From: Actinomycetospora corticicola
GTDB taxonomy: Bacteria; Actinomycetota; Actinomycetes; Mycobacteriales; Pseudonocardiaceae
NCBI RefSeq assembly: GCF_013409505.1
Contig: NZ_JACCBN010000001.1
Location: 6,076,001-6,140,000 of the forward strand
Length of the DNA stretch: 64,000 bases
Direction: 5' to 3'
The notes below the pieces were generated by a model, which saw only the letters and a list, made by a program, of their open reading frames with translations, made no database searches and was not told where the DNA came from. The translations under genes were made by a program, and so were the position numbers. Below are positions 2,964-36,947 of the stretch, piece by piece (position 1 is the first letter of the stretch; each line of letters starts with the position of its first letter).

Positions 2964-3090
2964 CCGCTCTCTCGGTCAAGGGCGCCTGCGGAGTCGCTGC
3001 GCGACCGGACGTCGTCCGGCCCTGGACCGCGAGCCTCGGCGGCCCCGCGGCGCCCACGGCGCGGTGGAGGCGGCACGGCACCTCCACCCA
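2964..3090 (+). repeat. Structured repeat, copy A
   Basis: First of four copies (others at 19938, 33712, 36821). A closing stem uses GTCAAGGGC at 2975-2983 and GCCCTGGAC downstream, with one mismatch. It encloses hairpins GTCGC-TGC-GCGAC and CCGGAC-GTC-GTCCGG. A third hairpin, GGTGGAGG...CCTCCACC, ends near 3088. It lies about 95 bases upstream of the broken wbl gene. Confidence 0.8.
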
Positions 3091-3186
3091 CGGTCCCGGG
3101 TCCGACCGGGGTCTTCCCGACGGCGGGTCCGGTCCGATGAGGCGTCCTGGACCGGTCCCGCCCACCACGAGCAGGAGGTGGCAGCC

Positions 3187-3312
3187 ATGACCAGCGACTA
3201 GCGTTCGAGCGCCGCGTGTCGAGACACCGACCCGGCGCTGTTCTTCCCGGCCGCGAACACCGGCCCGGCCCGGGCAGCGCAGATCTCCGCGGCGAAGGCC
3301 GCGTGTCGTCGC
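3187..3312 (+). pseudogene. Broken wbl (whiB-like) regulator gene
   Basis: The start region matches the intact Wbl gene at 20161 codon by codon (ATG ACC AGC GAC ...), with the same AGGAGGTGGCA upstream. Codon 5 is TAG where the intact gene has TGG (Trp). Similarity continues through Cys11 and Cys40 to codon 42. The next residue, the iron-sulfur cysteine Cys43 in the intact copy, is proline here, and the sequence then diverges. It is therefore inactivated both by the nonsense change and by loss of the 3' two thirds. Confidence 0.88.
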
Positions 3313-3566
3313 CCGCCTGCGTTGCGGCCGGGCGGGCGGGCGCGTACACCGGAGCCTGAGCGGCGTCCGGTTCGGCGGGCTCGCAGGTCACGGGTGTCGG
3401 TCATCCGCTCGGCGTGCCGCGGCGCGTGTCGACACCGGCTCGCGCCGACGTCAGTGGCGGGGAGTGCCGTCAGGGTGCCGCGCTGCCACTGAGGTCGGGG
3501 GGAGCGGCCAGGAGCCGGCCACCCGCGACGAAGGCCCCGACCGGTACCGGTCAGGGCCTTCATGTG

Positions 3567-3604
3567 AGGGTGCGCCGTCAGGGACTCGAACCCCGAACCC
3601 AGTG
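3567..3604. other. Distal attachment site (attL-like), copy of the tRNA-Lys 3' end
   Basis: These 38 bases are identical to 39262-39299, which contains the 3' part of tRNA-Lys (acceptor strand, T arm and beginning of the variable region). After base 3604 the sequences differ, so there is no complete tRNA here. A tRNA-fragment direct repeat with an integrase gene next to the intact tRNA is the expected product of site-specific integration at a tRNA 3' end. Confidence 0.88.
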
Positions 3605-4190
3605 GACAGGGTTCACATCGGCCGTGGTGCTTCACCGTCTGCATCTGTGCTGCTCAGCGACATGATCGACTCGTCGTGGTCTTCTGCTGTGGCGGGTCGT
3701 CGAGGGCTGTGGTGTGACATAAGCGGTACCGAAAGCGGGCCGTTGGACGAGCGTTCCCATCGTGGATCGTGGCGGACGCGCCCGTGTTTGTTGGTCTCGC
3801 CCCGGGGCGACCCGAGCAGGGTGAGTGACGAGGACGACGTTCACGGCAGGAGCGACCGGCCTGCCCCACCGCCAGACGCTGTTGAGGCTCCCAGTCAGCA
3901 GCATCCCCACACCAGGGCGGAGGCCAGGGCTGATCACGACATGGCAGAGGCCGAGGAAGCGGTGGCGCGTGGGAGCGGTTCATCTGACCAGCAGGACTCA
4001 GTGGCCGGCATGGCAGGCGAGCGCGGGCAGGAGGATCGGCGCACGGTGTGGATGGAGCGTCATCCGGATCGCGACAGATAGTCCTCCCGGGGCTCCTATC
4101 GGCGCGGCCGGCCTCGCAGCTTGTTGACCTCGGTGACCAGGCCCTCGGGCGACGAGTCCGAGATCGTGCCCATGGAGCTGGTAGCGGAGG
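3605..4190. other. No recognisable gene (586 bases inside the left att repeat)
   Basis: Open frames here lack the codon bias of the neighbours and resemble no family I know. A short minus-strand frame at about 4096-4190 has good third-position bias (GTISDSSPEGLVTEVNKLRG) but is only about 25 to 30 codons long, so it may be the tail of a lost gene. Confidence 0.5.
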
Positions 4191-4784: not shown

Positions 4785-4814
4785 CGGAGAGCAGCCCAGT
4801 GTCGGATGTGAGGC

Positions 4815-6238: not shown

Positions 6239-6306
6239 GATCGACTACCTCCCGATGGTGCGGGGTGCCCGGCCGCTCCGGGACCACGATTGCGACGACT
6301 CTGCCC

Positions 6307-8004: not shown

Positions 8005-8090
8005 GGCTCGCGCGGTATCCGCTTGTGCTCAACCGTTCCTTGAGTCGCGTCCGCGAACTAGGTTCGGAGGTCGAGGCGGAGGGGCGCGGA

Positions 8091-9401: not shown

Positions 9402-9443
9402 ACGGAGACCTCGGGCCGAGCACGCCCGGCCCCGCCGCCGCGG

Positions 9444-19335: not shown

Positions 19336-19620
19336 ATGGGTGGCACTGCTCCCACACCCCGAACGACCACCGAGTCCACCGGACTCCTGATCACCGTCGA
19401 GGAGGTCGCTCGCCTCTGGTTCGGCGAGGTCGGAGACGGCGGCTCCGCAAGCACCAACTGCCAGCGCATCCGTCGGCTCATCCCCAGGACGCTGCCGGCG
19501 CGCCGCATCGGCAACCGCTGGTACGTCAGCCGCGCAGTCGCAGAAGCGTGGGCGGCCGGCTCCGACCCGGCGTCGGTCATGACCCACCCGGACACGCGCG
19601 CCGCAGCCGAGGGCGCCTGA
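19336..19620 (+). CDS. Excisionase-like small HTH protein
   Basis: A 94-residue protein with a MerR/Xis-type winged helix: GLLITVEEVARLWFGEVG, then QRIRRLIPRTLPARRIGNRW and YVSRAVAEAWAAG. Such proteins bend DNA to direct excision or act as small regulators. GGAGGAG directly precedes ATG 19336. The stop overlaps the next start in ATGA. Most excisionases of this type sit beside the integrase; here the integrase is 18 kb away, so a regulatory role is also possible. Confidence 0.7.
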   Translation: MGGTAPTPRTTTESTGLLITVEEVARLWFGEVGDGGSASTNCQRIRRLIPRTLPARRIGNRWYVSRAVAEAWAAGSDPASVMTHPDTRAAAEGA

Positions 19621-19835
19621 TGAGCGGCATCGGGCTGTTGATCCTCTTCGCGATCCTCGGCGCCTTCATCTGCGCGAAGACCCGCTCGCCGTCCGGTGCG
19701 GTGGTGTTCTCGCTGATCGCTCTCGTGCTGTTCATCGGCACGCCGGTCGGGCAGGCCGTGCCGGGAGCGGTCGGCAAGGTCATGTCGACCGTCGACCAGG
19801 CCACGACCCCGGCTCTCAACGGCGGCGAGCAGTGA
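19620..19835 (+). CDS. Two-helix small membrane protein (Spd-like candidate)
   Basis: A 71-residue protein with two hydrophobic segments (SGIGLLILFAILGAFICA and GAVVFSLIALVLFIG) separated by KTRSPS. It is coupled to the Xis-like gene by ATGA. Its twin, 65 residues, sits in the relic at 2650. Small hydrophobic Spd proteins help plasmid spread in streptomycetes; similarity here is only in size and hydrophobicity, so that role is a guess. Confidence 0.65.
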   Translation: MSGIGLLILFAILGAFICAKTRSPSGAVVFSLIALVLFIGTPVGQAVPGAVGKVMSTVDQATTPALNGGEQ

Positions 19836-20164
19836 CCGGCCGCCACGCGATCGTCGCGCTCAGGGCCGCGCGGGCCGTGCAGATGGAGGACGTCGCCTGC
19901 GGCGACGCGAGCGGTCGGCCCCTGGAGCTTGTCGCGGCCGCTCTCCCGGTCAAGGGCGCCTGCGGCGTCGCTGCGCGACCGGACGTCGTCCGGCCCTGGA
20001 CCGCGAGCCTCGGCGGCCCCGCGGCGCCCACGGCGCGGTGGAGGCGGCACGGCACCTCCACCCACGGCTCCGGGTCCGACCGGGGTCTTCCCGACGGCGG
20101 GTCCGGTCCGGTGGGGCGTCCTGGACCGGACCCGTCCACCACGAGCAGGAGGTGGCACCCATGA
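19832..20164 (+). CDS. Doubtful frame coupled to the membrane protein and cut by repeat B
   Basis: The GTG overlaps the preceding stop in GTGA. The first 36 or so codons show good bias and are conserved in the relic at 2861 (MTGR ... AARA ... EDVACGD.SG ... ELVAAAL). From codon 36 the frame runs into structured repeat B, and the remaining 74 codons are only the repeat read in one phase, ending beside the wbl start. I think the first part is the head of a gene truncated by the repeat, or a leader; the 110-residue product is unlikely to be real. Confidence 0.25.
   Translation: MTGRHAIVALRAARAVQMEDVACGDASGRPLELVAAALPVKGACGVAARPDVVRPWTASLGGPAAPTARWRRHGTSTHGSGSDRGLPDGGSGPVGRPGPDPSTTSRRWHP
19938..20064 (+). 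repeat. Structured repeat, copy B
   Basis: Same unit as copies A, C and D. GTCAAGGGC is at 19949-19957, followed by hairpins GTCGC-TGC-GCGAC and CCGGAC-GTC-GTCCGG, then GCCCTGGAC closing the stem, then GGTGGAGG...CCTCCACC ending near 20062. It lies about 97 bases upstream of the intact wbl gene and would be in its 5' untranslated region. Confidence 0.82.
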
Positions 20165-20592
20165 CCAGCGACTGGCGCACGAGCGCCGCGTGTCGAGACA
20201 CCGACCCCGAGCTGTTCTTCCCGGCCGCGAACACCGGCCCGGCCTGGGCAGCGCAGGTCGCCGCAGCGAAGGCCGTGTGCCGTCGCTGCCCCGTGATCGA
20301 GCAGTGCCGGACGTTCGCCGTGGACGGGCTGCGCTACGGCGTGGCCGGCGGACTGACCGAACAGGAGCGGGTCACGCACCGCCGCTCGCGCACGACCTCC
20401 GGCCGGAGAGGCACGCGGTCTCGACGGCTGGACCAGGTGCGCGACGACCGGCTCACGGGTCGGCGGCTGTTGGAGGAGGGCGTCCGCCCGCGCGACGTCG
20501 CGACCCGCTGCGGGGTGAGCGAACGGACCGCCCTGCGCTGGGCCGCGGCGCTGCGTCAGGAGCTGGATGCGCAGGCGGAGCGGGTGTCATGA
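20161..20592 (+). CDS. Wbl (WhiB-like) iron-sulfur regulator with C-terminal HTH
   Basis: A 143-residue Wbl protein. The four cluster cysteines are Cys11, Cys40, Cys43 and Cys49 (C-x2-C-x5-C in VCRRCPVIEQC). The usual G-V/I-W-G-G turn appears as GVAGG, so the Trp is replaced by Ala. The C-terminal extension holds a predicted helix-turn-helix (RPRDVATRCGVSERTALRW), not usual in short Wbl proteins. AGGAGG precedes the ATG. The stop overlaps the next start in ATGA. It probably regulates the transfer genes downstream; structured repeat B lies in its presumed leader. Confidence 0.9.
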   Translation: MTSDWRTSAACRDTDPELFFPAANTGPAWAAQVAAAKAVCRRCPVIEQCRTFAVDGLRYGVAGGLTEQERVTHRRSRTTSGRRGTRSRRLDQVRDDRLTGRRLLEEGVRPRDVATRCGVSERTALRWAAALRQELDAQAERVS

Positions 20593-20987
20593 GCTCGCGA
20601 GTGGCCGGCCTCATGACCGAGCAGTGGGGGTGGCAGCCGACCGCCTGGCTGGAGGACGGTCTGCCGACCTGGCGATGGCGGTTCGCCCCGCGTGGGCTGA
20701 TGACGCGCCGTCAGATGCGGAGCGCTGGACTCGCTCCAGGAGGCCGGCCACCGGTGGCGCGCGTCGTCTGCCGGCGGGGCCGTCGGTGGGCTGCGCTGTG
20801 GGACGGCAGCGAGCTCGTGGCAAAGCGGACTCCTTCGGCGGCGCAGCTCGACGCGGTGCGCCGTGCTCTGGCTGCTCGCCGCTGGTGCGGGAGATGTGAA
20901 CAGGACGTCGGCTATTGCATCCAGGTCTCGCTCGGGCTGTGCGTGGACTGCCATGCAGCTGGTCGCGGCGGTGGCGGCCGTGGGTGA
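20589..20987 (+). CDS. RRQRL-motif zinc-binding protein
   Basis: A 132-residue protein with RFAPRGLMTRRQMRSAGLAPGG near residues 32-52, the element from which the RRQRL family takes its name, and a C-terminal zinc ribbon CGRCEQDVGYC plus CVDC. The family is known from actinomycete mobile elements; its molecular role is not known to me. It is coupled to the wbl gene by ATGA and probably cotranscribed with the transfer operon. Confidence 0.8.
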   Translation: MSSRVAGLMTEQWGWQPTAWLEDGLPTWRWRFAPRGLMTRRQMRSAGLAPGGRPPVARVVCRRGRRWAALWDGSELVAKRTPSAAQLDAVRRALAARRWCGRCEQDVGYCIQVSLGLCVDCHAAGRGGGGRG

Positions 20988-21381
20988 GCCGAGGCAGGTG
21001 CGTCCGGCGGTCGCAGCGGCTGAGAACGCGACCCACTGGTGGCGCACTGCGGTCGCCGCACAACGGGCGCTCCGGGCGGAGGCGCTCGAGCACGCCGACT
21101 TCTACGACCTCACGGCTGAGGCGGTCGGGACGTTGCGCTCGATCGAGGAGCTCGCCGAGCTCCTCGCTCGTCAGGTCGGTGGCTACGGCAGCGGGCGGGT
21201 GCTGCGCGACGACGCCGGGTGCGACCCGGCCGCGCGACTCGTACGCGCGGTCGCCGACGTCGCCTCTCTGCGGATCGCGGTCACTTCTGCGCTGGCCGAG
21301 GGCGAGCGCTTCTGGTCGTCCATCGGCCACATCGGTCTCGAGATCGACCCCACTTCCGGTCCTGAGGAGGGACGGCCATGA
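20953..21381 (+). CDS. Hypothetical transfer-operon protein
   Basis: A helical protein of about 142 residues from ATG 20953, or 133 from GTG 20980, which would avoid most of the overlap with the RRQRL gene. It contains AENATHWWRTAVAAQRALRA and ARLVRAVADVASLRIAV but no motif I recognise. It overlaps the start of the VirD4-like gene in ATGA, so it belongs to the same operon. Confidence 0.65.
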   Translation: MQLVAAVAAVGEPRQVRPAVAAAENATHWWRTAVAAQRALRAEALEHADFYDLTAEAVGTLRSIEELAELLARQVGGYGSGRVLRDDAGCDPAARLVRAVADVASLRIAVTSALAEGERFWSSIGHIGLEIDPTSGPEEGRP

Positions 21382-23375
21382 ATACGGCAAGTCTGGTCCT
21401 GCTCGTCCCGCTGGCCCTCGCGGCCTGGGTCGCGTTCCGGCGCGGTGCCCGCCGGCCCGCCGCTCTGTTGGGCGCTGCCGCCGCGCTGCCCGGTTACGCG
21501 TTCCTGACTTCGCTGACCTGGCCTTTCGTGCTCCTGCTCATGGGCCTCGGTGGGCTGCTGGCGTGGCAGCGGCTCGCGCGGACGTCGTCGATCGTGTCGC
21601 GCTGGTCGGGTCGGAGCCGCCGCAAGGCTGGCGTCGCCTCGAGCGTGGACATCGCCCGCCGGGCGGGTGCGGTCGCGATGCTGGCGATGGCGGCGAAGGT
21701 CCGGCCGTCGCTGGCCGGGCTATCCCGGTGGGAGCGCTGCCGGGTCCCGGTCGCGCAGGTCGCGGTAGAGCTGGTTCGGGTCGGGGTGCAGCGGGTCTGG
21801 TCCTCGGTCGAGGACGTCGTGCTGATTTTCGGCGGGCCTCGGACCGGCAAGACGGGCTGGCTCGCTGGCCGGGTGATCGACGCGCCGGGTGCTGCGGTGG
21901 TGACCTCGACGCGTACCGACCTGCTCGAGTTGTGCGCGCCGCTGCGACCGGGCCCGGTCTACGTGTTCAACGCGGTTGGGCTCGGTGATCGAGAGACGAC
22001 GCTGCCGTTCGACCCGCTGGTTGGGTGCGAGGACCCAGTCACCGCGGTCGAGCGGGCGACCGACATGGTCGCCGCCACCAGCCGTGGCTCGGCGTCGGGT
22101 GATGCGGAGCGGTGGGATTCCCAGGCCCGCCGGGTGCTGGCGGCGCTGCTGCACGCCGCCGCGTTGGGTCAGGCGTCGATGTGGCAGGTGCTGGAGTGGG
22201 TCGCCGACAACGACCAGGCCGCTCACGAGGTCCCCGCCCTGCTGCGCCGTTCGCAGGTGCAGGCCTTCGAGCGGGACGCCTCGCAGTTCATCACCACCAA
22301 CGACCGCACCCGCACGTCGATCACCAACTCGATCATGCCCGCCCTCGGGTGGCTCAATCACCCGGCCGCCGCGGCCGCGGCGCAGCCGGGGGCGTCATTC
22401 GATGTCGCCGAGCTGCTCGATCAGAAGGCCACCGTCTTCTTGCTGGGGGCGGAGGAGGCGAACACCGGGGCGCTGGTGTGCGCGCTGACCGGGCACATCG
22501 CTCGTGAGGCCCGCCGGCTGGCGAAGGGCGGGCGGCTGGATCCGCCGCTGACGTTGGCGTTGGACGAGGCGGCGTTGATCTCGCCGGTGCCGCTGGAGAA
22601 CTGGTCGGCGGACATGGGCGGTCGCGGGGTCACGATCGTCGCGGCGTTCCAGTCTCGGGCCCAGTTGCTCGACCGGTACGGCCCGCACAAGACCGCGACG
22701 ATCCTGAACAACACCGCCTCGGTGATGCTCTTCGGCGGCACGCGAGATCGCGACGATCTGCAGTTCTGGTCGACCCTGGCTGGGGAGCGCGACGAGCGGA
22801 TCACCACCACCGACCTGCACGGTCGCGTCGCGTCCCGCACGGTGCGCAAGGTGCCGGTGTTCTCCCCGGCGCAGATCGCGAACCTCGCCCCGGCGCGGGC
22901 GATCGTGTTCCGCCGCGGCATCGACCCCGTCCTCGGCCGCGCGCGCATGGCGTGGCGGCGCCGAGACGTCCGTGCCACTTCGGCCGGCTACCCGGCCGCG
23001 GCCGCCGCGCGGGGTGTGCGGGCTCGGCTGCTGTACACGCGGCTGGTCACCGTCGGTCGAGCTGCGGCGGCGGCGAGCGCGGCGAAAGCCGGGTTCGCGA
23101 CGGCGGGTCGGGTCTTGTCGTCAGCGTCGGTTGCCCGTGAACGGCTGCGGTTCTGGTGGGGACGACTGCGGCCGACGGCGTGGACCCGTCGTCGAGAAGA
23201 GCGCACCCAGGCCCAGCGCCAGAAGCTCGGCCTCGACCGGTCCTGGCGGCGCCCGGAGGGTGAGCCGCGGGTCAGCGACGCGCTGCGTGTGCCCTCGCAG
23301 CGCCTGGTCGTCGAGCTCGATCCCGCACCTGACGACGCTCGCGACGACGAGCCGGTCGGCGGGGGCGAGCGATGA
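21378..23375 (+). CDS. VirD4/TraG-type coupling ATPase
   Basis: A 665-residue protein with two N-terminal membrane helices (about residues 5-20 and 35-62) and a RecA-like ATPase domain. Walker A is GGPRTGKTGW near residues 152-161 and Walker B is LTLALDEAALI near 390-400; the TraG-like region (VTIVAAFQSRAQLLDRYG ... ILNNTASVMLFGGTRD) follows. Coupling proteins deliver relaxase-bound single-stranded DNA to a secretion channel. Classical AICEs use an FtsK/TraB double-strand pump instead, so this points to a relaxase-dependent element. The partner relaxase is encoded at 26308. Confidence 0.88.
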   Translation: MNTASLVLLVPLALAAWVAFRRGARRPAALLGAAAALPGYAFLTSLTWPFVLLLMGLGGLLAWQRLARTSSIVSRWSGRSRRKAGVASSVDIARRAGAVAMLAMAAKVRPSLAGLSRWERCRVPVAQVAVELVRVGVQRVWSSVEDVVLIFGGPRTGKTGWLAGRVIDAPGAAVVTSTRTDLLELCAPLRPGPVYVFNAVGLGDRETTLPFDPLVGCEDPVTAVERATDMVAATSRGSASGDAERWDSQARRVLAALLHAAALGQASMWQVLEWVADNDQAAHEVPALLRRSQVQAFERDASQFITTNDRTRTSITNSIMPALGWLNHPAAAAAAQPGASFDVAELLDQKATVFLLGAEEANTGALVCALTGHIAREARRLAKGGRLDPPLTLALDEAALISPVPLENWSADMGGRGVTIVAAFQSRAQLLDRYGPHKTATILNNTASVMLFGGTRDRDDLQFWSTLAGERDERITTTDLHGRVASRTVRKVPVFSPAQIANLAPARAIVFRRGIDPVLGRARMAWRRRDVRATSAGYPAAAAARGVRARLLYTRLVTVGRAAAAASAAKAGFATAGRVLSSASVARERLRFWWGRLRPTAWTRRREERTQAQRQKLGLDRSWRRPEGEPRVSDALRVPSQRLVVELDPAPDDARDDEPVGGGER

Positions 23376-25979: not shown

Positions 25980-26307
25980 CCACCACCCCGAACCAGACGA
26001 CGAGCAGCAGCCAGACGAGGACCGATCAGCAGCCCAGCACCACGAGAAGAGCAGAAGAGAAGAACAGCGACGCGACGAGTGGGCTCCGAGCAAGCAGACC
26101 GACGAGCCACCAGCGAGGAACGACAAGATCAAAGGCAGCACACCTATGCATCACGATCCGTCGGTGCCGCCTGCGGCGGGCCCAGGGCGTTCCGCGCCCG
26201 GTCGTCACGATCGCACCGGTCATGGCTGTTGATCTCCAGGTCAAGACCGAGAAGGGCAGGCAGCGTCGCCTGGCGGATCTTGATTGCGAGTTCGGGCGGT
26301 GGGGCTC
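25980..26307 (+). other. Gap before the relaxase gene; candidate oriT region
   Basis: This 328-base stretch is visibly poorer in G+C in its first half. It holds two hairpins, CCGCC-TGC-GGCGG at 26167-26179 and GGGCG-TTCCG-CGCCC at 26185-26199, flanked by direct copies of TCACGATC at 26151 and 26205. A GTG-started frame 25976-26314 is open but loses coding bias after about 25 codons. MobF origins of transfer often lie next to the relaxase gene, so this is the best place to look; no nick site is identifiable by eye. Confidence 0.35.
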
Positions 26308-29300
26308 GTGCTGAGCGTCGCGTCGGGCTACTCACCGGACTACCTGCTCAAGGAGGTCGCGACCGGGCGGGAGAGCTACTACACCGGCGCGGTCACCGGT
26401 GGGGAGCCGCCGGGGCGCTGGTGGGGCGCCGGCGCGGAGAAGCTCGGCCTGACCGGATTGGTCGACCCGCAGGACATGCGCGCGGTCTACGAACGGTTCC
26501 TCGACCCGCGCGCCGACGGGTTCCGGAACCCCGAGCGGTGGGACGAGCTCGCCGAGACCGCCACTCTCGGGCACGCCGGTCGGCGGTATCCGAGCGAGGA
26601 CGAGCTGTACGCCACCGCGCTCGAACGGGAGCCGGACGCCTCGGCTGAACGCCGCGCCGAGCTCCGGGTCGAGGCGGGCAAGGCGACCCGGCACAACGTC
26701 GCCTTCCTCGACGTCACGTTCAGCGTTCAGAAGTCGGTCACCGTGCTGCATACAGCGTTCGAGGCCGAGGAAGTCGCGGCCCGCGCCGCGGGCGACAACG
26801 AGGCCGCGGCGGCGTGGGGCGAGTACCGCCAGGCCGTCGAGGACGCCATCTGGGCTGGCAACAACGCCGCGCTGGGATACCTGTCCGAGCGCGCTGGCTA
26901 CGCCCGGGTCGGGCATCACGGTGGCGCGGCTGGCCGCTACGTCGACGCCCACGACTGGATCGTCACGTCGTTCTTCCAGCACGACTCGCGCGACCACGAC
27001 CCGCAGCTGCACATCCACAACCCGGTCCTCAACCGCGTCGAGGGCCCCGATGGCGTCTGGCGCACCCTCGACGGGCGCAGCATCTACCGCTTCCGCCCGG
27101 CCGCGGCGGCGGTCGCCGAGCGCACCACCGAGGAACGGCTCGGCGCGACTCTCGGGGTGCGGCTGGCGATGCGCCCGGACGGCAAGGCCCGCGAGGTCGT
27201 CGGGGTCGACGAGGCCGCCACCGACCTCTTCTCGTCCCGACGCCGGGCCGTGTCGGGCAAGGCCGCGGAGCTGATCGCCGAGTTCGAGGCCCGGCAAGGT
27301 CGTGAGGCCAACGGCCTCGAGCGCGACCGGCTCTCGCGTCAGGCCACGATGGCCACCCGTCAGGCGAAGTCCCATGACGGCGAGACCCGCACCGAGTTCC
27401 TCGACCGCGTCGACACCAAGCTGCGAGCCGAGGTCGAGCACGGCCTCCGTGGTGTCGCGCAGCAGGTTCTCGACACTCGCACCGACACCCGTGTAGCCGA
27501 CCCCTGGACCCCGGGCGCGGTGCTCGAGACGGCCTTGGCCGACGTCCAGTCCAAAAGGGCCGGCTGGACCCGCGCCGACCTCACCCGCGCCATCAACGAC
27601 GCCCTGCCCGACACCCTCGGTCTCACCGACGGCACCGACGTCGCGGCGCTGCTCGACCAGCTCACCGAGGAGGGCCTCGCGCTGGCGACCCCGCTCGACA
27701 CCGCCCGCCCCGCTGCCGCGGACCTGCCCGACGAGTTCCGTCTCGCTGATGGCCGCTCGGCCTACGAGGCCTCCGGCGCTGCCCTGTTTGCGACCCCGAC
27801 GCACGTCCACACCGAACGCGCCATGCTCAGCGCCGTCGCCCGCCACGACCTCCCACCCGCGGCCCCGCTGCACGCGATCGACACGTTCCTGACAGACCTG
27901 CGCGACACCGGCTTCGACCTCGGTGCGGACCAGGCCGCCGCGGTGCGCGGGGTCCTGACCTCCGGCGCCCGGGTCGAGACGCTCGTCGGGCCCGCCGGGA
28001 CCGGCAAGAGCTTCGTCGTCGGCGCCATCGCCCGCGCCTGGTCACATCCCGAGCTCCGCGGTGCCGGAGCACGCCGCGTGTTCGGCGTCGCCACCAGCCA
28101 GATCGCGACCGACGTCCTCGCCGCCGAAGGCCTCAGTACCCGCAACGTCGCCCGCTGGCTAGCCACCCAGGACCGGCTCGCCGACTCGCCGGGCAACTCC
28201 CACGACGACGACCGCGGCTGGCGCCTGCACGCCGGTGACCTCGTGGTCGTCGACGAGTCCGCCATGACCGACACCGCCGCTCTGACCCGCATCCACGACC
28301 ACGTCGAGCGCGCCGGCGGGAAGCTGCTGCTCGTCGGTGACCACCGCCAGCTCGCCGCCGTCGGCGCCGGCGGCGCGATGGAACTACTCGCGAACGCAGG
28401 CGCCCGCTACGAACTCGCCGACACCCGCCGCTTCACCGCCGCCTGGGAAGGCCCCGCCTCACTGCGGCTGCGCGACGGCGACGACACCGTCCTGCGCGAC
28501 TACCACCGCGAAGGCCACATCCTCGACTGCGGCACCCTCGACGACGCCGAAGCCTCCGCCACCCGAGCCTGGCTCGCTGACACCCTCGCCGGCCGCCGCT
28601 CCGTCCTCGTCGTCGACACCAACGACCAAGCCGCGCGCCTCGCCGCCCGGCTACGCGCCGAACTCGTCAGACTCGGCCGCGTCGACGAGCACGGCGTCCC
28701 CCTCGGGCGGGACGGGACCATAGCCGGGGTCGGTGACCTCGTCGCGGCGCGCCGCAACGGCTGGGAACTGATCGGACATGCCGGCAACGGCAAGGCCCCG
28801 ATCAACCGCGAGGTCTACCGCGTCACCGCCGTCGGCGACGACGGCGCCCTAACCGTCGCCTCGACGCGAACCGAGGGCGCGCCCATCGTCTTGCCGGCCG
28901 AGTACGTCGACCGCGACCTCTCCCTGGCCTACGTCGGCACCGTGCACTCCGCCCAGAGCTTGACCGTCGACACCAGCCACCTCGTCGCCTCGCCGTCCTC
29001 CAGCCGCGCCGCGACCTACGTCGGGCTCACCCGCGGCCGCGAGCGCAACACCGCCCACACCGCCACCGTCTCCGCGCCGAACGACGCCGCGCGCGGTCTG
29101 ACAGCGGACCATGCCGTGCATCGCGACCCCGTCGCGGTCCTCGCCGGCGTCGTCGCCCGCGAGGACCGCACCGACGACGAGTCCGCCCTCGCCATCGCCA
29201 CCCGCTCCGCCGACGAAGCCGACAGTGCACGCACCGCGGGAGAGTTGTTCGCCGACGCCGCTGCACTCGCTGCCACCGAGCGGACCGGGCGCTGGCTCGA

Positions 29301-30672
29301 CGACCTTGCCGCCGACGGCACCATCACCACCCACGACCGACAACGCCTCGCCGCCGAAGACGGGGCGGCATCGCTGAGTCGCGTGCTGCGTCGCGCGGAG
29401 CTCGCCGGAAACGACCCAGAGACAGTGCTGCGCGAAGCCGTGACCGACAGACCTCTCGACGGAGCCCGCAACCTCACCAACGTCATCCACGCCCGCGTCC
29501 GCGACGCCCACGACTACGACCCCGCCGGCAGCACCTGGACCGACTGGGTCCCGACGACGGGCCGCGACGACTGGGACCGCTACCTCACCGGCCTGGCCGA
29601 AGCCGCTGACGACCGCGCCGCCGAACTGGCCGAACAGCTCGCCGCCGAACCACCGTCGTGGCTGACGGAGGCCCTCGGGCCGGTGCCTGAGCAGCTCGCG
29701 GATCGCGAGTTCTGGCTGGAGAAGGCGGCCGCCGTCGCTGGGTGGCGCGAGCTCAATGACCACGAGGATCCAAATGACGCCCTGGGACCGGCCCCCAGCC
29801 CGGGGCAAGTCGAGGCGTACGCCTCCTTCCGAGCCGCGTGGCGGGCCCTCGGCCGACCGGAGATCGACCGCGAGGAACTCGAGCTCTCCGACGGCCAACT
29901 CCGCGTTCGAGTCCGCGCCCACCAGCGCGAGGCCGCCTGGGCGCCGCGCTACGTCGGCAACGAACTCGCTGGCACCCGCCAGGCTGCTGATCGCGCTGAG
30001 CAGGACGCCCAGCTCCGTCGCGCTGAAGCCGAGACAAGAGCCGACGAGCAGGAGCGCGCCCAGGCGCTGCGCGAAGCCGAAGAGGCCCGCTCGCTCGCCG
30101 AGACCCTGCGGGCGCGAGCCGAGGAGCTCAGCGAGCTCGACGACGCCCGGTCGCAGTGGCTCGCGCACACCTCCGGCACGCGCGCTGCTGCGGATCGCGC
30201 CAAGGCCGAGCTGGCCGCCCGGCACGCCGACGACGTCGACCCCGAGCCTGCCGTGACCGCGGCCGAGTGGCTGGCCGCGCATCGCGAGTCGGTGGCCGAG
30301 GACGAGAAGGACAAGGTCGTCACTGACGAGGACGTCACCGACCGGCCAGACGAACTCGCGTCAGAAACGAGCGACGACAAGCCCGACGAATTGGCCGAGC
30401 CAGAGGGCTCAGAGCGTGACTTGCGCGAGGTCGCTGCGTACGAGCCGGGCCCGACGAACGAGGACGACGTGCGCGTCCCGACCGCTGACGAAACCAGCGC
30501 CGCAATCGGGCGGGCGAACCGTGCGCTCGTCGAGATGAAGGCACGGGACGAGATCGACGCCGCGGAGGAGGCCGATCACCGCAGCGAGCAGCTCGCCGAC
30601 TGGCAGGCGCGCGACGCCGACGTCGAGACGGAGGACGCGACCACGGAGGTGGACGAGCCGGTCGAGGTCTAG
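26308..30672 (+). CDS. MobF (TrwC/TraI-type) relaxase-helicase
   Basis: A 1454-residue conjugative relaxase. N-terminal tyrosines lie in GYSPDYLL and SYYTGAV (about residues 7-28). The HUH metal site is HDPQLHIHN near residues 229-237, preceded by AFLDVTFSVQKSVTVL. The helicase half has Walker A GPAGTGKSFVVG near 560 and Walker B DLVVVDESAMTD near 643, with LAYVGTVHSAQSLTVD further on. A long charged coiled coil (about 1210-1310) precedes an acidic tail. It would nick oriT, stay covalently bound and unwind the strand. GTG 26308 follows GGTGGGG and gives the family-like start VLSVASGYS. The annotated secretion partner is the VirD4-like protein at 21378. Confidence 0.93.
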   Translation: MLSVASGYSPDYLLKEVATGRESYYTGAVTGGEPPGRWWGAGAEKLGLTGLVDPQDMRAVYERFLDPRADGFRNPERWDELAETATLGHAGRRYPSEDELYATALEREPDASAERRAELRVEAGKATRHNVAFLDVTFSVQKSVTVLHTAFEAEEVAARAAGDNEAAAAWGEYRQAVEDAIWAGNNAALGYLSERAGYARVGHHGGAAGRYVDAHDWIVTSFFQHDSRDHDPQLHIHNPVLNRVEGPDGVWRTLDGRSIYRFRPAAAAVAERTTEERLGATLGVRLAMRPDGKAREVVGVDEAATDLFSSRRRAVSGKAAELIAEFEARQGREANGLERDRLSRQATMATRQAKSHDGETRTEFLDRVDTKLRAEVEHGLRGVAQQVLDTRTDTRVADPWTPGAVLETALADVQSKRAGWTRADLTRAINDALPDTLGLTDGTDVAALLDQLTEEGLALATPLDTARPAAADLPDEFRLADGRSAYEASGAALFATPTHVHTERAMLSAVARHDLPPAAPLHAIDTFLTDLRDTGFDLGADQAAAVRGVLTSGARVETLVGPAGTGKSFVVGAIARAWSHPELRGAGARRVFGVATSQIATDVLAAEGLSTRNVARWLATQDRLADSPGNSHDDDRGWRLHAGDLVVVDESAMTDTAALTRIHDHVERAGGKLLLVGDHRQLAAVGAGGAMELLANAGARYELADTRRFTAAWEGPASLRLRDGDDTVLRDYHREGHILDCGTLDDAEASATRAWLADTLAGRRSVLVVDTNDQAARLAARLRAELVRLGRVDEHGVPLGRDGTIAGVGDLVAARRNGWELIGHAGNGKAPINREVYRVTAVGDDGALTVASTRTEGAPIVLPAEYVDRDLSLAYVGTVHSAQSLTVDTSHLVASPSSSRAATYVGLTRGRERNTAHTATVSAPNDAARGLTADHAVHRDPVAVLAGVVAREDRTDDESALAIATRSADEADSARTAGELFADAAALAATERTGRWLDDLAADGTITTHDRQRLAAEDGAASLSRVLRRAELAGNDPETVLREAVTDRPLDGARNLTNVIHARVRDAHDYDPAGSTWTDWVPTTGRDDWDRYLTGLAEAADDRAAELAEQLAAEPPSWLTEALGPVPEQLADREFWLEKAAAVAGWRELNDHEDPNDALGPAPSPGQVEAYASFRAAWRALGRPEIDREELELSDGQLRVRVRAHQREAAWAPRYVGNELAGTRQAADRAEQDAQLRRAEAETRADEQERAQALREAEEARSLAETLRARAEELSELDDARSQWLAHTSGTRAAADRAKAELAARHADDVDPEPAVTAAEWLAAHRESVAEDEKDKVVTDEDVTDRPDELASETSDDKPDELAEPEGSERDLREVAAYEPGPTNEDDVRVPTADETSAAIGRANRALVEMKARDEIDAAEEADHRSEQLADWQARDADVETEDATTEVDEPVEV

Positions 30673-31336: not shown

Positions 31337-31577
31337 CGCTACGAACTACTTGCCGACTTGTGTGGTCGATTGGTGAAATTGGCTCCCGCGGGGCCCTCCC
31401 TCCCGCGCGGAGCGAGCGAGCCCGTCCGCGCGAGCGGTGCTGTCGAGGGCTGGCTCGCTGGCGAGTGGCCATTGTGGTGTGGCTGGCCCACGCAGCGGGC
31501 GCTGAAGTGGACCGCATATGAGCCGCGCTTGTCGGGTTTCAGCGGGACCCCCGAAGCGCATATGTGACCGTTGGAAG

Positions 31578-33344
31578 TTAATCGGCTAATTCGACCCACA
31601 TCGTTCTGAGCTGGGTCCTCTGACTGGCGGCGATCTGACGAAACTGGTTACTTAGCGAGACTGTTTCCATGCGAGCAACTACTGATTGGAAGTCGTCGAC
31701 GGAATCTCTGGTAACCTTAGTCGCCGTTCCGTACGCCAAGACATAGGTTCGGTTCTTGCTAAATACGTCCAAGAAGTCTTTCTCGGACATCTGGGTTCTA
31801 CCTCGCTTGACAAGTCGAGCGTGGTGTCTCTTCAATCGATCAGGAGAGTCCGACCTCAGGTCGTTCTCGATCAGCGTGGCGGAATTGATTACCTGCGACC
31901 GCACGTCGCGCATCTTCACGTCAAACCCGTGCTTGAGGTGGATAATAAAAACGCCCTCGTTTGTCCATGCCAGGGTGTCGAAGAGCTCGACATTGTCAGT
32001 AAGCACGCGATCGCCATTGATGCCTGCAATCAAGCTCGCGGCAAGTTCGTTGTACTCTTTCTCGGCAAATTCTTCTTGCCATTGCGGGAGGCCGAGAGTT
32101 GAAGCGTCGAGATCGGTCTCTTCTAGAACGGTGGCAAGGTCCTCGGTCACCAGCCTTACGTAATCTCCGTCAACGCGATACCAGCGTCCCGCGAGGAGAA
32201 AGTAGGTCTGACCCTCGTGCTGCATCTCGCCATGAAGATGCTCGAACAATGTTCCATTTGTTCCCACATCCGCACCAAGCTCAGGACAGCGAGATGCAAT
32301 GGAAACGTCTCCGAGGAGAGGTTCTCCGCCTGCAAAGCCATCGAGGACTTCAACGACCTCACCGAGGCTCGGTCGATGGTCGCTCTCAAGGAGTGTCTCG
32401 GACCCTTTCGTCACAATGTACGTATCTGCATTGGCGTAAAGGGTTGCTTCTACATGCGTCAACGCAAAATTCGCCAGGTTCCTCTCGGTGAACAGCTTTG
32501 AGGAGAGCTCCTTCTTCAGAGTCTCTATGAGGCCCTTGCTTTTCCGAGGGTTGAGCAGTGCGATGGAATCGAGAACCCTCCACTCGTCATCTTCTGGAAG
32601 CTCGGCCTCGCTAGTCGCGAGCGTCCAGCGCATCAGCTTGATCAATTTTTCGAGACTCTCGACCCGCGGAGTAAATTTGATCGAGCTCGCCACTTCAACC
32701 CGCATCGATTTCTTGTGTCCATAGATCGAGACGAACTCCGACTCAGCAAGAGTGTCAGTGCGAACTTGTCCGCTGAGCGCCGTCCACACGTTCTCCAGGG
32801 ACTCAGTGTGAGTGATGCGCCTCGGGTCGCGAAAATTTACGTCAGTCGCAAGTGCGGCGCCCGTGAGTGGACTCGAACGCGCTCTCTTCACCTCTGGCTG
32901 CGCCACTCGCCGCGCCACTGCAATCGGAAAAGAGACATCGATAAAGCGTTCGAAGACGTGGGAAGCTTGGCCCCCCGTGTGCGCGAATAGTTCGTCCTCT
33001 ATCGCGACGAAACCGATGAATTGCTGATTTTGGCTCCGAGCCTCCCTTATCTCTACACCTGCTGGTTGGTAAAACTTCGACCACGGGCTTGCATAGCTCC
33101 TAGATGTAACATTGCGGTAGACCAGCAGATGGCAACCCTCGAACTCCCCGGAGTCCTCAAGAGCAAATGTGAGCGCCTTCTTGTTGCGATTATAGGCGTC
33201 AACGATCTTCTCGGGGAGGGCTGATACCGCAATATCGTCGCTTTGTAGGAATGCTCTGATCTCCACAACGTCGAGCCGAAAAATGGGCGGGGCGTTGAGC
33301 CCTGCCTGCGCTGCCGCCACTGATCCCCCCCACCGTGCACTCAT
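31578..33344 (-). CDS. TIGR04141 / DUF6119-like sporadically distributed protein
   Basis: A 588-residue protein. The pattern WSKFYQPAGVEI ... QFIGFVAIEDELFAHTGGQ ... FERFIDVSFPIAVARRV, then later DTLAWTNEGVFIIHLKHGFD and VRSQVINSATLIENDLR, matches my memory of the TIGR04141 (DUF6119) family, whose members occur patchily, often in defence islands. Biochemical function is unknown. Its base composition is clearly lower in GC than every neighbour, with AT-ending codons common, so it is a recent arrival. ATG 33344 is preferred; ATG 33377 adds 11 unconvincing residues. Confidence 0.72.
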   Translation of the reverse strand: MSARWGGSVAAAQAGLNAPPIFRLDVVEIRAFLQSDDIAVSALPEKIVDAYNRNKKALTFALEDSGEFEGCHLLVYRNVTSRSYASPWSKFYQPAGVEIREARSQNQQFIGFVAIEDELFAHTGGQASHVFERFIDVSFPIAVARRVAQPEVKRARSSPLTGAALATDVNFRDPRRITHTESLENVWTALSGQVRTDTLAESEFVSIYGHKKSMRVEVASSIKFTPRVESLEKLIKLMRWTLATSEAELPEDDEWRVLDSIALLNPRKSKGLIETLKKELSSKLFTERNLANFALTHVEATLYANADTYIVTKGSETLLESDHRPSLGEVVEVLDGFAGGEPLLGDVSIASRCPELGADVGTNGTLFEHLHGEMQHEGQTYFLLAGRWYRVDGDYVRLVTEDLATVLEETDLDASTLGLPQWQEEFAEKEYNELAASLIAGINGDRVLTDNVELFDTLAWTNEGVFIIHLKHGFDVKMRDVRSQVINSATLIENDLRSDSPDRLKRHHARLVKRGRTQMSEKDFLDVFSKNRTYVLAYGTATKVTRDSVDDFQSVVARMETVSLSNQFRQIAASQRTQLRTMWVELAD

Positions 33345-33453
33345 CGCTTGCCTTGGGTGTCGAGATCTTGGGAGCAACTGTTACCAGGATGAAGCCAGCT
33401 TCAGCTACGAACGTGGACGACCAGCGGCCGCTGGAAGGCACTGACCAGCATCG

Positions 33454-33711
33454 AGCTCGTGCCGCGTCGAGCCCGGCGTAGAAGCGCTGCAGGGGAACGG
33501 CGCCGGTCTGCGCGGCGGCTGAGCCGACGACGCTGCGGCTCAGGTCGGGCAGCTCGCTCCACTGCGGAGCTTCGTAGCCGAGCCAGGTCACCGCCGCCGT
33601 CGTCCCGGGGGTGGTGTCGGGGTCGTACTGGGCGCTGAGGAACTCGGACTGATCGCGCAGGTTGGCCATGTCGGCGTCGTAGCCCTTGAGGCTGCCCTGG
33701 ACGGTGGCTAG
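33454..33711 (-). pseudogene. Fragment of a DUF1023-type alpha/beta hydrolase gene
   Basis: About 86 codons read LATVQGSLKGYDADMANLRD ... TTAAVTWLGYEAPQWSELPD, the conserved block of DUF1023 proteins. The N-terminal half and the catalytic C-terminal part are missing. At its 5' side the match ends exactly where structured repeat C begins (33712), and at its 3' side it passes into unrelated sequence near 33454. The gene is therefore a remnant. Confidence 0.75.
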
Positions 33712-33836
33712 CCGCTCTCCCCGTCAGGGCGCCGTCGTCGTCGCTGCGCGACCGGACTTCGTCCGGCCCTTGACCGCGGGCCTCGGCGGCCCCCAAGCAC
33801 TCGAGGCGCGTTGGAGGCCAGGAGGCGCCTCCACTC
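33712..33836 (+). repeat. Structured repeat, copy C
   Basis: Same unit as copies A, B and D. The closing stem is GTCAGGGC (one base shorter) with GCCCTTGAC at 33766-33774. Inner hairpins are GTCGC-TGC-GCGAC and CCGGAC-TTC-GTCCGG. The last hairpin is imperfect (TTGGAGGC...GCCTCCA). It lies about 150 bases upstream of the AlbA_2-like gene at 33989 and abuts the DUF1023 fragment. Confidence 0.8.
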
Positions 33837-33988
33837 AGCACCCGCGCCCACCAGCCCGGCCTCCGACCGTGGGGTCCGTCTACTTCCGGGAAGGACCTCT
33901 CTAGGAGGTGCAGCCTCCGGAAGTCGACTGCAGACGGGAGCCTGCGTGGCGGCCCGGTCAGGCTCGGTTGCAGCGGCAGGATGAGCAG

Positions 33989-35299
33989 ATGGACACGGGT
34001 GGGCCGCCGCTGGGGGAGCGGGCACGTCGGGCGCTGCTGGACCACGTGCTCGAGGTCGGGGACGCGGCCGAGCGGTCGTATCTCGAGGTCAAGACAGAGG
34101 TTGACCTGAGCAAGCCGGCTGGGGTCGCCAAGGTGGCGAAGTTCTTGCTCGGCGCCGCTAATCGGGACCCGGCGGATGCGAGCCGCTACTTCGGGGGGTA
34201 TGCGGTCATGGTGCTCGGAGCCGGGAAGGGAGTCCGGCACGGTCTGCCGGCAGGGGTCGAGCCCCACGAGCTCGAGGATCGACTCCGTCCGTACCTGGGG
34301 ACCAATTTCCCGACCTTCGACCTCGAACGGCTCCCCGCCGACGAGCCGACCCGTGAGGTGCTGTTCGTGCTGGCTGCCCCTCCGTCCCGAGGCCAGCCTC
34401 CCTACCCCTGCCGCAAGAACTTCCAGGGCGAGAAGGGGCAGGAGAACCTGGCCGACGGCGCGATCTACGTTCGGGGCCACAGCAACACCCGACCCGCCCA
34501 CTCCGGTGAGATCGACGCACTGGTCGAGCGGGCCCGCGGTGAGCACGACCGGCGCGAGATCGATATCGCCGTCGACGCCCTCGGCCCCGTACAGCGCATC
34601 CTTAATGCCGACGAGCTGATGAGCGCCTTCTTTGACCAGACCGAACAGAAGTTCCGCGACGCGCTCGCAGGCCCAGAACCCGACCCGATCGCTTTCCCAG
34701 CAGCCACGCTGTCCGGCGCTCCCCGTCGGTTGTCCGTGGAGGAGCGCGAGGAGCACCTGGCGCGCTGGGTCGACGCCCGGCCCGCCCTTCTCGCGCAGGG
34801 CCGCGACCACCTGCTCGGCGTGCTCCTGCAGGGCATGCGCCTATCAGTGACCAGCAACGGTCGCTACATCGACCACCCCCGCCTGACGGTCGTGTTCCAC
34901 GATTGCACCTTCGTCGAGCACCTCGAACACGGCGATCTCGACCCGCAGACCCTGATCGAACCGGTGATGGGGCGCCACCACGATTTCTACGACGCGGTGT
35001 CACCGCCGATGCCGATGCTCGCGAACTACCCGGTCCGCTGGGAAACCGACGGTCGAGGCGTGCGCGTGACCCTGACCCCCGACTCGCTGTACCCCGACGA
35101 CCCGTGGATTACCGAAGGCGACGACTACTGCATCCTCGTCGACTCCGACCGCTCCACTGTGCGGGTCAGCTGGATGATGAGCGAGCGCGGGAACGACGAG
35201 GTCTACCGAGGCGAGTTCGATGTCCCAACTGCTGATCCCGAGGACCTCTTCGCTCTCTTCCGTGCTTTCCGCGACCAGGACCTGCGGGACACCACCTGA
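33989..35299 (+). CDS. Schlafen AlbA_2-like domain protein
   Basis: A 436-residue protein. The N-terminal 180 residues fit the AlbA_2/Schlafen fold: SYLEVKTEVDLSKPAGVAKV then AKFLLGAANRD, GGYAVMVLGA, and GAIYVRGHSNTRPAHSGEID. Members bind nucleic acid or nucleotides and some act in defence or regulation. The C-terminal 200 residues are unlike anything I recognise. ATG 33989 follows CAGGAT by eight bases; GTG 33908 is also open. Normal GC, unlike the divergent TIGR04141-like gene. Structured repeat C lies upstream. Confidence 0.68.
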   Translation: MDTGGPPLGERARRALLDHVLEVGDAAERSYLEVKTEVDLSKPAGVAKVAKFLLGAANRDPADASRYFGGYAVMVLGAGKGVRHGLPAGVEPHELEDRLRPYLGTNFPTFDLERLPADEPTREVLFVLAAPPSRGQPPYPCRKNFQGEKGQENLADGAIYVRGHSNTRPAHSGEIDALVERARGEHDRREIDIAVDALGPVQRILNADELMSAFFDQTEQKFRDALAGPEPDPIAFPAATLSGAPRRLSVEEREEHLARWVDARPALLAQGRDHLLGVLLQGMRLSVTSNGRYIDHPRLTVVFHDCTFVEHLEHGDLDPQTLIEPVMGRHHDFYDAVSPPMPMLANYPVRWETDGRGVRVTLTPDSLYPDDPWITEGDDYCILVDSDRSTVRVSWMMSERGNDEVYRGEFDVPTADPEDLFALFRAFRDQDLRDTT

Positions 35300-35391
35300 C
35301 CATGGCCCTTCGGCCACGACGGCGCCCCGGGGCGCCGTCAGCTCCGGAAAGGGGAGGACTGGTCACACTCAAATCGAGGACCTCCTCGCGC

Positions 35392-36303
35392 TCAGTGAGG
35401 CTGAGCGCGTGAGGTGAACAGGTTGAGCGCTCGCTCCAACAGCAGCACCGGTCCTGCGATCATGTTCGTCAAATCCGTGGTTGTGGTGACGACGCGAGCG
35501 TGGAAGCCTTCTGGCGTGTCCAACGCGTGCGTGGCGCCCATGAGCATGTGCCAGCGGCCGCTGTGCGCTGCGGAGTTCAGCTGCGCGAGTGTGAGGTTCA
35601 ACGCCGACCGCAAGGCCGTGTCGCACTCGTCGAGGCGTTCGTCGAGCGCGTAGCCCAGCATCTCCTTAAGGGTCGGATTCTTCTTCAGCTGCCCTCGGGG
35701 GAGGCCGATCTTATCGGATACCTCGAGGAGAGTCCTCTGTCGTTCCGCGACTGTGGTTTCGATCTGTTGCCACTGCTCGGGACTGCCGACGCCGATCGTG
35801 TCCCTTGCGTCTTTCAGCATGGTTTCGTAGGAATCGAGGTCGTCCTTGGCCAGGCGCAGCGCGTGCTTGGTACGGATGGTGCGGCTCGGCGGTGCGAGCA
35901 CGAAGACGGCGGCGGCGGCGCCGTTAAGTGCCGCCCGGGCCAGCGCGCGGTGACCGGTGCCGTACGCGGTGCGGTCGCCGGCGAGGGCGGCGAAGAACGT
36001 CGAAAGAGCGTCGATGCCGGCTGCGATGCCCGTCCAGGCGATGCTGCTCGTCGGGTACTCGGGATAGGCGCGGTCGTCGGCGGCGAGGCTGCTGCCGGGC
36101 TGTGCCTGCATCGGGTGCTCCAGCATGGGGCGCAGCGCGGCGACGACTGTGGACAGCTCCTCGAGACGCTTGAGCGCGAACTCGCGTGCCTCCTCGGTCT
36201 CGCCGGTCCCAATGGGGACCGCACCCTCAGGTAGACCATTCGTCACGCAGCCAGGATGACGGATGCCGTCCACCCAGTTTCGCCCCGTCTGATGCCGAGC
36301 CAC
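35392..36303 (-). CDS. Hypothetical protein
   Basis: Up to 303 residues from ATG 36303, or 284 from GTG 36246, which I cannot decide between. It is helical and contains WTGIAAGIDALSTFFAAL, YGTGHRALARAALNGAAAAV and a long amphipathic middle (KDDLDSYETMLKDARDTIG). No known motif. It is convergent with the AlbA_2-like gene. Its position between that gene and the integrase marks it as element cargo; a defence role is conceivable only by association. Confidence 0.7.
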   Translation of the reverse strand: MARHQTGRNWVDGIRHPGCVTNGLPEGAVPIGTGETEEAREFALKRLEELSTVVAALRPMLEHPMQAQPGSSLAADDRAYPEYPTSSIAWTGIAAGIDALSTFFAALAGDRTAYGTGHRALARAALNGAAAAVFVLAPPSRTIRTKHALRLAKDDLDSYETMLKDARDTIGVGSPEQWQQIETTVAERQRTLLEVSDKIGLPRGQLKKNPTLKEMLGYALDERLDECDTALRSALNLTLAQLNSAAHSGRWHMLMGATHALDTPEGFHARVVTTTTDLTNMIAGPVLLLERALNLFTSRAQPH

Positions 36304-36820
36304 CCCGCGTGGACGGTGCCGCTCTCACTAAGGCGCACTTCTCGCGCCTCGAAGGTCAGTGCCTATCGAACCGAGACAGGGGCGCCGTTGCAGTTCCGGA
36401 GCTCGGCGATCAGGTGGTGAGGGCGTGGTGTTGCCGCACGACCGCTGTGAGGATCTCGCTCGGCTCCGGATCTGGCGACACCTCCGGCGCCGCGAAATCA
36501 GCCTGCTCGGCATGATGCGCGGCTGGTCCTGAGGCCGCCAGCCTCGGCGCTCCGCCGGAGCTGCGTCGACACGATCGGCACGCCCGCGGGCTCATCGCCG
36601 AGCCGACTCGGACCTCTGTGCTCGCCGCCGCGATCTCAGCGACCCCGCGGTGAGCGGAGCGCGCCAGCGATTGGTGCGCGGTGCCGCGCTCGCGCCGGGT
36701 GGTGGGTCTGACCATCTGTCGGTGAGGACCGGACGTTCAAGCGTCGCGCCTAGCGGCGCTCCGGTGGTGCCGCCTGCGGCGGCGCTGTTCTTTCCGGGTG
36801 GGCCCGGGAGTTTGATCGGG
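36304..36820. other. No recognisable gene
   Basis: About 517 bases between the hypothetical gene and repeat D. Open frames have no consistent codon bias and match no family. The last 150 bases are rich in short inverted repeats (for example GTGCCGCCTGCGGCGGCGC) and run straight into repeat D. Confidence 0.5.
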
Positions 36821-36947
36821 CCGCTCTCCCCGTCAAGGGCGCCTGCGGCGTCGCTTCGCGACCGGACTTCGTCCGGCCCTTGACTGCGAGCCTCGGCGGC
36901 CCTCAGGCGCCCGAAGCGCGGTGGAGGCCAAGAGACGCCTCCACCCA
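36821..36947 (+). repeat. Structured repeat, copy D (best-paired copy)
   Basis: The closing stem is perfect: GTCAAGGGC at 36832-36840 with GCCCTTGAC at 36876-36884. Inside are GTCGC-TTC-GCGAC (36850-36862) and CGGAC-TTC-GTCCG (36863-36875). The third hairpin is also perfect: GGTGGAGGC at 36920-36928 with GCCTCCACC at 36937-36945. It ends about 42 bases before the sigma-factor start, so it would lie in the leader of that mRNA. Confidence 0.85.

Follow-up and report, generated by a model that had tools for sequence, protein, structure and literature searches.

A repeated hairpin unit that may act as a fold-back promoter on single-stranded DNA of actinobacterial mobile elements

The DNA analysed here, hereafter the window, is a 64,000-nt stretch of the Actinomycetospora corticicola contig NZ_JACCBN010000001.1 (positions 6,076,001-6,140,000). 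It carries four copies, A to D, of a multi-hairpin unit, which in our view is probably a promoter of actinobacterial mobile elements operating on single-stranded DNA (ssDNA) and possibly also a primer site for synthesis of the second strand. A preliminary description of the sequence had reported four plus-strand copies of about 125 bp. A DNA search and a covariance model built from the genus both recovered them at those places and on that strand, although the modelled unit is longer, about 141 nt. The modelled copies are:

2951-3091, plus strand: copy A, outside the left attachment site (attL), upstream of a broken wbl gene (genus model)
19925-20065, plus strand: copy B, 96 nt upstream of a WhiB-like gene (genus model)
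33700-33838, plus strand: copy C, 151 nt upstream of an open reading frame (ORF) of 436 amino acids (aa) (genus model)
36808-36948, plus strand: copy D, 41 nt upstream of an ECF sigma factor gene (top model score)

At E 0.001, a DNA-level search of the 6.17-Mb genome matched these four copies and nothing else, A, B and C being 84-88% identical to D. The genus-built model retrieved them in the window at E 3.6e-25 to 2.1e-17, the next window match standing at E 0.077, and gave one weak fifth match in the genome (position 463459, E 5e-4). None of the Rfam covariance models reached its threshold at the copies, in agreement with the earlier remark that no known RNA family fits. Since copies A and B both lie within a duplicated stretch (2619-3312 versus 19589-20286, 92% identical over 698 bp), they are treated as one case, not two. 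The wbl start after copy A runs into a stop after four codons, and copy C has lost one base in TCAAGGG. The genes named earlier downstream of A, B and D were found again, whereas the AlbA_2-like gene proposed after copy C gave no Pfam match at E 0.001.

Copies B, C and D lie inside, and copy A just outside attL of, a putative integrative element of about 35.7 kb. Such an element is suggested by a relaxase, a coupling protein, an integrase beside tRNA-Lys and two exact copies of a 38-bp sequence from the end of this tRNA, which would form its boundaries:

3567-3604: attL, exact 38-bp repeat of 39262-39299
20161-20592, plus strand: WhiB-like gene, after copy B
21378-23375, plus strand: TraG/TraD-type coupling protein
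26299-30672, plus strand: MOBF (TrwC) relaxase, on the strand of the copies
31578-33377, minus strand: DUF6119 protein of 599 aa, from a family of unknown function, inside the element
33989-35299, plus strand: 436-aa ORF after copy C, without Pfam match at E 0.001
36989-37555, plus strand: ECF sigma factor gene, after copy D
37945-39171, minus strand: phage-type integrase, adjoining tRNA-Lys
39264-39338, minus strand: tRNA-Lys, the insertion site
39262-39299: right attachment site (attR), 3′ part of tRNA-Lys

The 0.7-kb duplicate of the element's wbl region outside attL may have been left by an element that occupied this site before. The interval 20592-21378, between wbl and traG, was considered as an origin of transfer (oriT) and rejected, as by eye it looks coding.

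From the outside inwards, the unit is composed of a 5′ flank (GAGCTT, TGGCTT), an outer stem P1, CTC opposite GAG with a CCTC bulge on the 3′ side, stem P2, stem P3 (TCAAGGGC/GCCCTTGA), inner hairpins and a terminal hairpin. The stems originally described for copy D are present in its minimum-energy fold. Three parts of this copy are located at:

36818-36824: outer stem P1, 5′ arm GGGCCGC, partner 36896-36902
36833-36840: stem P3, TCAAGGGC, partner 36876-36883
36920-36945: terminal hairpin GGTGGAGGC/GCCTCCACC

P1 was observed in 37 distinct 7-bp forms (for example GGGCCGC/GCGGCCC, CACGGCC/GGCCGTG and TTGCGCC/GGCGCAA), and at least 6 of its 7 pairs were Watson-Crick in 69 of 78 unique arm pairs, taken in the best register. 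When the arms were re-paired with the same register freedom, a mean of 32.5 and a maximum of 42 reached this level in 300 trials. The genus alignment showed changes on both sides at 7 of 30 predicted pairs. Selection on nucleic-acid structure, as first proposed, is thus supported by the pairing of P1. As RNA, copy D stands out in folding energy (z -3.5) while A (-1.0), B (-0.8) and C (+0.3) do not. An apparent inequality in the conservation of the two P3 arms (0.59 versus 3.71 bits) was discarded because it arose from a selection of sequences on their left arm. In the model alignment, which is free of this selection, the arms carry 0.65 versus 0.80 bits summed over 6 pairs. Taken whole, they differ mildly, with TCAAGGG in 83 and CCCTTGA in 57 of 98 copies.

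The reverse complement of the gene-distal arm resembles a sigma70-type promoter: TTGACn and [TC]AnnnT separated by 16 nt (15-18), the -35 lying in the conserved stem P3, the covarying outer stem in the spacer and the -10 at the stem base. The elements identified in the window are:

2974-2979, minus strand: copy A, -35-like TTGACC
2952-2957, minus strand: copy A, -10-like CAAGCT, spacer 16
19948-19953, minus strand: copy B, -35-like TTGACC
19926-19931, minus strand: copy B, -10-like CAAGCT, spacer 16
36831-36836, minus strand: copy D, -35-like TTGACG, overlapping P3
36809-36814, minus strand: copy D, -10-like CAAACT, spacer 16, unpaired in the DNA fold

Elsewhere the -10 takes the forms TATCAT, TACAAT, CACAAT and TACACT; the second-position A and the sixth-position T are important in actinobacterial -10 elements. 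A minus-strand [TC]AnnnT at 15-18 nt from TTGA was found in 67 of 110 unique copies, the very copies whose inspection had led to the choice of this pattern, and in 22 of 41 cluster representatives, compared with 1.4 ± 1.2 in shuffled representatives and 2 of 70 in the mirrored right arm. Once this pattern had been fixed, it was applied to 12 plasmid copies, most of whose sequences had already been seen and two of which are near relatives; 8 matched, all at exactly 16 nt (shuffled: mean 0.58, maximum 4 in 2000). Over the 300 nt upstream of the start, TTG[AC]-N16-21-[TC]AnnnT was present on the reverse strand in 34 of 83 cases and on the forward strand in 2 of 83. Minus-strand DNA folds left the -10 unpaired in five copies out of six. 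In duplex form the promoter is directed away from the gene; in the folded minus strand it is directed into the gene. A CGGCCC-like stretch recurs about ten bases upstream of the unit in many copies of the family; on the minus strand it lies just past the -10 and is possibly a discriminator-like element.

Orientation was scored for 100 copies among the matches listed, after one place in genome G259 had been skipped from 101. Outside this sample stand the places in G023, G025, G224, G245, G072, G043, G024, G283, G227, G251, G173, G093, G236 and G258 and the other G259 places, these genomes being either not searched for relaxases or dispersed in type by appearance. Within 80 kb on the same contig, 32 copies had no relaxase and 68 had a MOBF/TrwC relaxase, at distances of up to 58 kb. 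All but one of the latter (67/68) lay on its strand, and 49 of 50 elements were uniform in strand. In 20 such stretches, 109 of 143 genes from a simple gene-calling script were on the relaxase strand, so that the copies keep to this strand more strictly than genes (Fisher p 7e-6 counting copies, 2e-4 counting elements). The sole exception, G019:C34 (L105), has no called ORF downstream. One further copy, on an M. branderi plasmid, follows the mobF strand, and the core of the unit in Kocuria pCE7 is on the transfer-gene strand, 226 nt upstream of ardC. Such a MOBF-strand rule is what the geometry of plasmid F would predict, provided that the transferred strand is the one we infer, the minus strand of the copies. 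R388 is like F in this geometry. In F, ssb, psiB and traM to traK are all on one strand, and the transferred strand is their template, as can be worked out from the transfer order in PMC9849209.

A called ORF followed on the same strand in 83 of 99 copies, with a median gap of 60 nt between model end and start codon (at most 250 nt in 73 of 83), and the fixed place upstream of genes noted in the preliminary description therefore holds in most copies. Eighty-one of these 83 proteins were scanned (left out: L157:19552-19800 and L181). SSB was recognised in 12 by Pfam and in 13 by NCBIfam; the other families were ECF sigma (9), WhiB (3), Prim-Pol (3), IS110 transposase (2) and ArdC (1). Many of the remaining proteins matched no family, and three scanned singly gave none. 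The genes for SSB and for anti-restriction are known cargo of leading regions (PMC11541004). Two recurrent proteins were observed besides. One of about 175 aa (MPARTDRSR...VRAAGLVPARLDLAHVGTAEQQLGLTLGTVL, L161:9607-10134), a candidate establishment gene product, comes after the hairpin in several genomes of the family, with look-alikes after the L163, L180, L182 and L183 copies. The other, short and with two CxxC-like pairs (DLVCPGCAGPVVDAPPSGWPARAG...DGSVLCPD, L098:3288-3590), is the first gene product after several copies, with look-alikes after those of L087, L097 and L102. For each, the one protein scanned was without Pfam match.

DNA-level copies were detected in 13 of 18 genomes of the genus, including the genome of the window. 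A covariance model built from 28 copies matched, at E 1e-4, 63 of the 297 family genomes searched and 18 of their 46 genera. The class-wide search with model R1 yielded 47 of 394 genomes at E 0.001, a soft tally; of 29 loci checked, 14 contained the core and 7 of those 14 the promoter. The plasmid matches listed came from Streptomyces, Pseudonocardia, Kocuria, Nocardia, Rhodococcus, Mycobacterium, Cutibacterium, Micromonospora, Arthrobacter, Glutamicibacter, Rothia and Curtobacterium, among others; plasmids of the alphaproteobacteria Acidiphilium and Lichenicola were matched over a core of about 50 nt. On Acidiphilium cryptum pACRY01 (L224 6001-6051), the core with TTGACG-16-CAGTCT lies upstream of a winged-helix gene. 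Copy D had no match in 50,697 phage records. Among four small plasmids the core was opposite rep in three: Curtobacterium D03b (1579 bp, weak Rep_trans match of 22.4 bits, cut-off 29.6), P. autotrophica pPA43082 (8047 bp, Rep_1) and Rothia pSD9660b (3459 bp, Replicase family, TTGACC-16-TAAACT), including 2 of 2 with Rep_trans or Rep_1. Rothia terrae p4 (2520 bp, TTGACG-16-TAGATT) carries it on the same strand as a rep-like ORF with PriCT_1.

The fold with its covariation, the promoter-like elements with their strand and spacing, the MOBF orientation rule, the position of the copies and their downstream genes, all computed here, are consistent with the following working. On arrival of the transferred strand in a cell, still single-stranded, each copy would fold back on itself. 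The gene-distal arm would then be the non-template side, presenting the -35 TTGAC in P3, a spacer made of P2 and P1 and an unpaired [TC]AnnnT at the base, while the gene-proximal side would be the template, and RNA polymerase, presumably able to use this fold, would start into the gene a few tens of nt further on. Synthesis of the complementary strand would convert the hairpin into duplex, in which the promoter faces away from the gene, and would thereby end early expression. Gene-distal non-template elements are expected in this scheme because a fold-back promoter on a transferred template strand requires them there. An RNA leader has no need of minus-strand hexamers on that side and is less favoured for this reason.

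A regulatory leader was the preliminary proposal. In such a model the plus strand would be transcribed from further upstream, and a folded 5′ untranslated region would control translation or attenuation of mobile-element genes, its GCCTCC perhaps pairing with a ribosome site. The structural part of the proposal and the gene-upstream place stood, and the regular distance to the start codon, the shared strand and the compensatory changes in the stems all suit a leader. The RNA part fared less well, given the hexamers on the opposite strand, the relaxase-linked orientation and the cores of pTZC1, pARLON1 and pRE117-1, which lie between convergent genes with no start downstream. The two forward promoter matches in 83 upstream regions also argue against it, although a promoter further up would escape that search. 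We regard it as quite improbable. A single-strand initiation site or origin only, at which polymerase would make a primer for the second strand with gene expression as a by-product, overlaps with the ssDNA promoter that we prefer. We consider it unlikely. In its favour are the presence of the core in D03b, pPA43082, pSD9660b and p4, its position opposite rep in the first three, including both plasmids with a rolling-circle-type Rep, and three mobC-type plasmids in which no gene is directly downstream. Against it are the copies of MOBF elements placed shortly before start codons, several per element in some, and the p4 rep on the strand of the core.

A further alternative is an ordinary duplex promoter, directed away from the hairpin-side gene and tuned or insulated by the inverted repeat. 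The match is good as duplex, and such a promoter would face a parA/ATPase start 107-109 nt off in P. ureafaciens unnamed6 and pZXY25, mobC in five mobC-type plasmids, and a divergent upstream gene in 35 of the 77 copies with a called one. The other 42 upstream genes are codirectional, so that the duplex transcript would be antisense to them; moreover, the spacer covaries with the other arm, which a duplex does not need, and the regular spacing belongs to the gene on the other side. We give this explanation a low probability. The two parA-facing cores, on related Micrococcaceae plasmids, are those at L228 6191-6240 and L223 20472-20524. Lastly, the unit could be a mobile or dispersed repeat, resembling repetitive extragenic palindromes (REP) or miniature inverted-repeat transposable elements (MITE) and spread in some genera with DUF222-HNH genes, without function for its host element. 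This alternative, already raised in the preliminary description, gains from other genera: cores are dispersed between chromosomal genes in G259, G023, G025 and others, occur in G259 and G023 as inverted pairs separated by 0.66-1.57 kb, and in G025 precede a DUF222 match by 96-142 nt on the same strand in all 10 copies listed, 6 of 8 fetched G025 DUF222 loci having a copy. It loses in the window genome, whose four strong copies include none near its listed DUF222 matches (by coordinates), and the orientation and start-codon distance are unlike random insertion; we find it very improbable. The dispersed form may be mobile, or may show that the promoter has been put to another use. In G023, units of about 1.57 kb were observed (L081 1447-3011, L083 1566-3135) in which inverted hairpin copies with an outer stem TTTGCGCC/GGCGCAAA flank a DUF222 gene; the 382-aa DUF222 form occurs 14 times among the matches listed.

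The dispersed, inverted and DUF222-linked cores and the divergent upstream genes also weigh against a fold-back promoter on ssDNA, as do several further observations. Sixteen of the 99 copies are without called ORF, copy B heads a stretch running into transfer genes, and copy C, which is decayed, gave no promoter match. The minimum-energy fold of L083 has another hairpin in place of P1, with the -10 mostly in a loop, and the minus-strand DNA fold of copy B is no better than shuffles (z -0.5). A wobble test of which strand folds was rejected as evidence: A.C exceeded G.U mismatches 19 to 6 in P1, and 22 to 9 in collapsed form (p 0.03), but random arm re-pairing gave about the same A.C for P2, where the excess is due to arm composition. 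A strict scan of F upstream of ssb revealed no comparable promoter and hence supplied no positive control. Orientation raises a further objection. In all five mobC-type plasmids read (pTZC1, pVMKU, pARLON1, pRE117-1 and a Leifsonia plasmid, three of them typed MOBP) the core is opposite mobC and the relaxase, and the core of P. ureafaciens unnamed6 is on the other strand from its traM-domain, ardC-like and ssb genes. As the transferred strand of RP4 is the one from which traI is read (Table 1 of PMC7314908), the mobC-type cores would be on the wrong strand if their nick strand is alike. Since these cases oppose the orientation in MOBF elements and pCE7, either these groups are nicked on different strands or the module serves more than one purpose.

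A wider reading is conceivable, if somewhat doubtful: a single fold-back promoter module, carrying TTGACn in its stem and an unpaired [TC]AnnnT at the base, would serve both ssDNA transcription and second-strand priming across Actinomycetota, Acidiphilium plasmids and DUF222-HNH selfish elements. It would cover MOBF and mobC-type conjugative elements and plasmids down to 1.6 kb, and the DUF222-HNH elements would be expressed wherever their DNA is single-stranded. If the fold-back promoter is real, Actinomycetota, including antibiotic producers, could express genes before the second strand exists, and an element could switch on its first genes while entering a new cell. The unit would then mark establishment genes of unknown function, many of them directly downstream, and the transferred strand would become predictable from it.

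Among known systems, the DUF222-HNH repeats, named REP13E12 or 13E12-type, are similar in that DUF222 genes of G023 and G025 have related hairpins on both sides or upstream; they differ in that, by coordinates, no such gene is near the window copies. For the Frpo/ssi single-stranded promoters, Masai and Arai in 1997 is reportedly the cited source. The likeness to Frpo/ssi concerns a hairpin before ssb or other early genes, the presence of multiple copies in one element, and -35 and -10 elements rebuilt by folding of the transferred ssDNA, here predicted from sequence. By contrast, the present unit is GC-rich, has a 16-nt spacer, a [TC]AnnnT -10 at the stem base and several inner hairpins, and is found mostly in Actinomycetota. 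Single-stranded promoters have been shown for the enterobacterial plasmids F and ColIb-P9 (PMC9849209 and PMC11541004), and by analogy our unit may work in a similar manner without sequence similarity having been seen: no enterobacterial record was among the plasmid matches listed, an indirect test. The wide survey in the latter paper relied on similarity to five known Frpo/ssi sequences and a -35/-10/UP consensus, and includes one Streptomyces leading-region island (Extended Data Fig. 5a) that may have a promoter marked (PMC11541004).

The single-strand origins (sso) of rolling-circle plasmids and sso1 of ICEBs1 (PMC4595007) are likewise folded, orientation-specific and carried by mobile elements or small plasmids, whereas our unit is repeated and placed before start codons. 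The EGeRS of the pLS20 family similarly are repeats regulating establishment genes, on Gram-positive conjugative plasmids, but their authors judge ssDNA promoters highly unlikely, the transferred strand being the non-template one (PMC8708921). The literature searched, by title or the start of the abstract and with most subscription papers outside its scope, contained no actinobacterial ssDNA promoter. The unit is, with fair likelihood, an actinobacterial counterpart of the single-stranded promoters that is new with respect to that literature.

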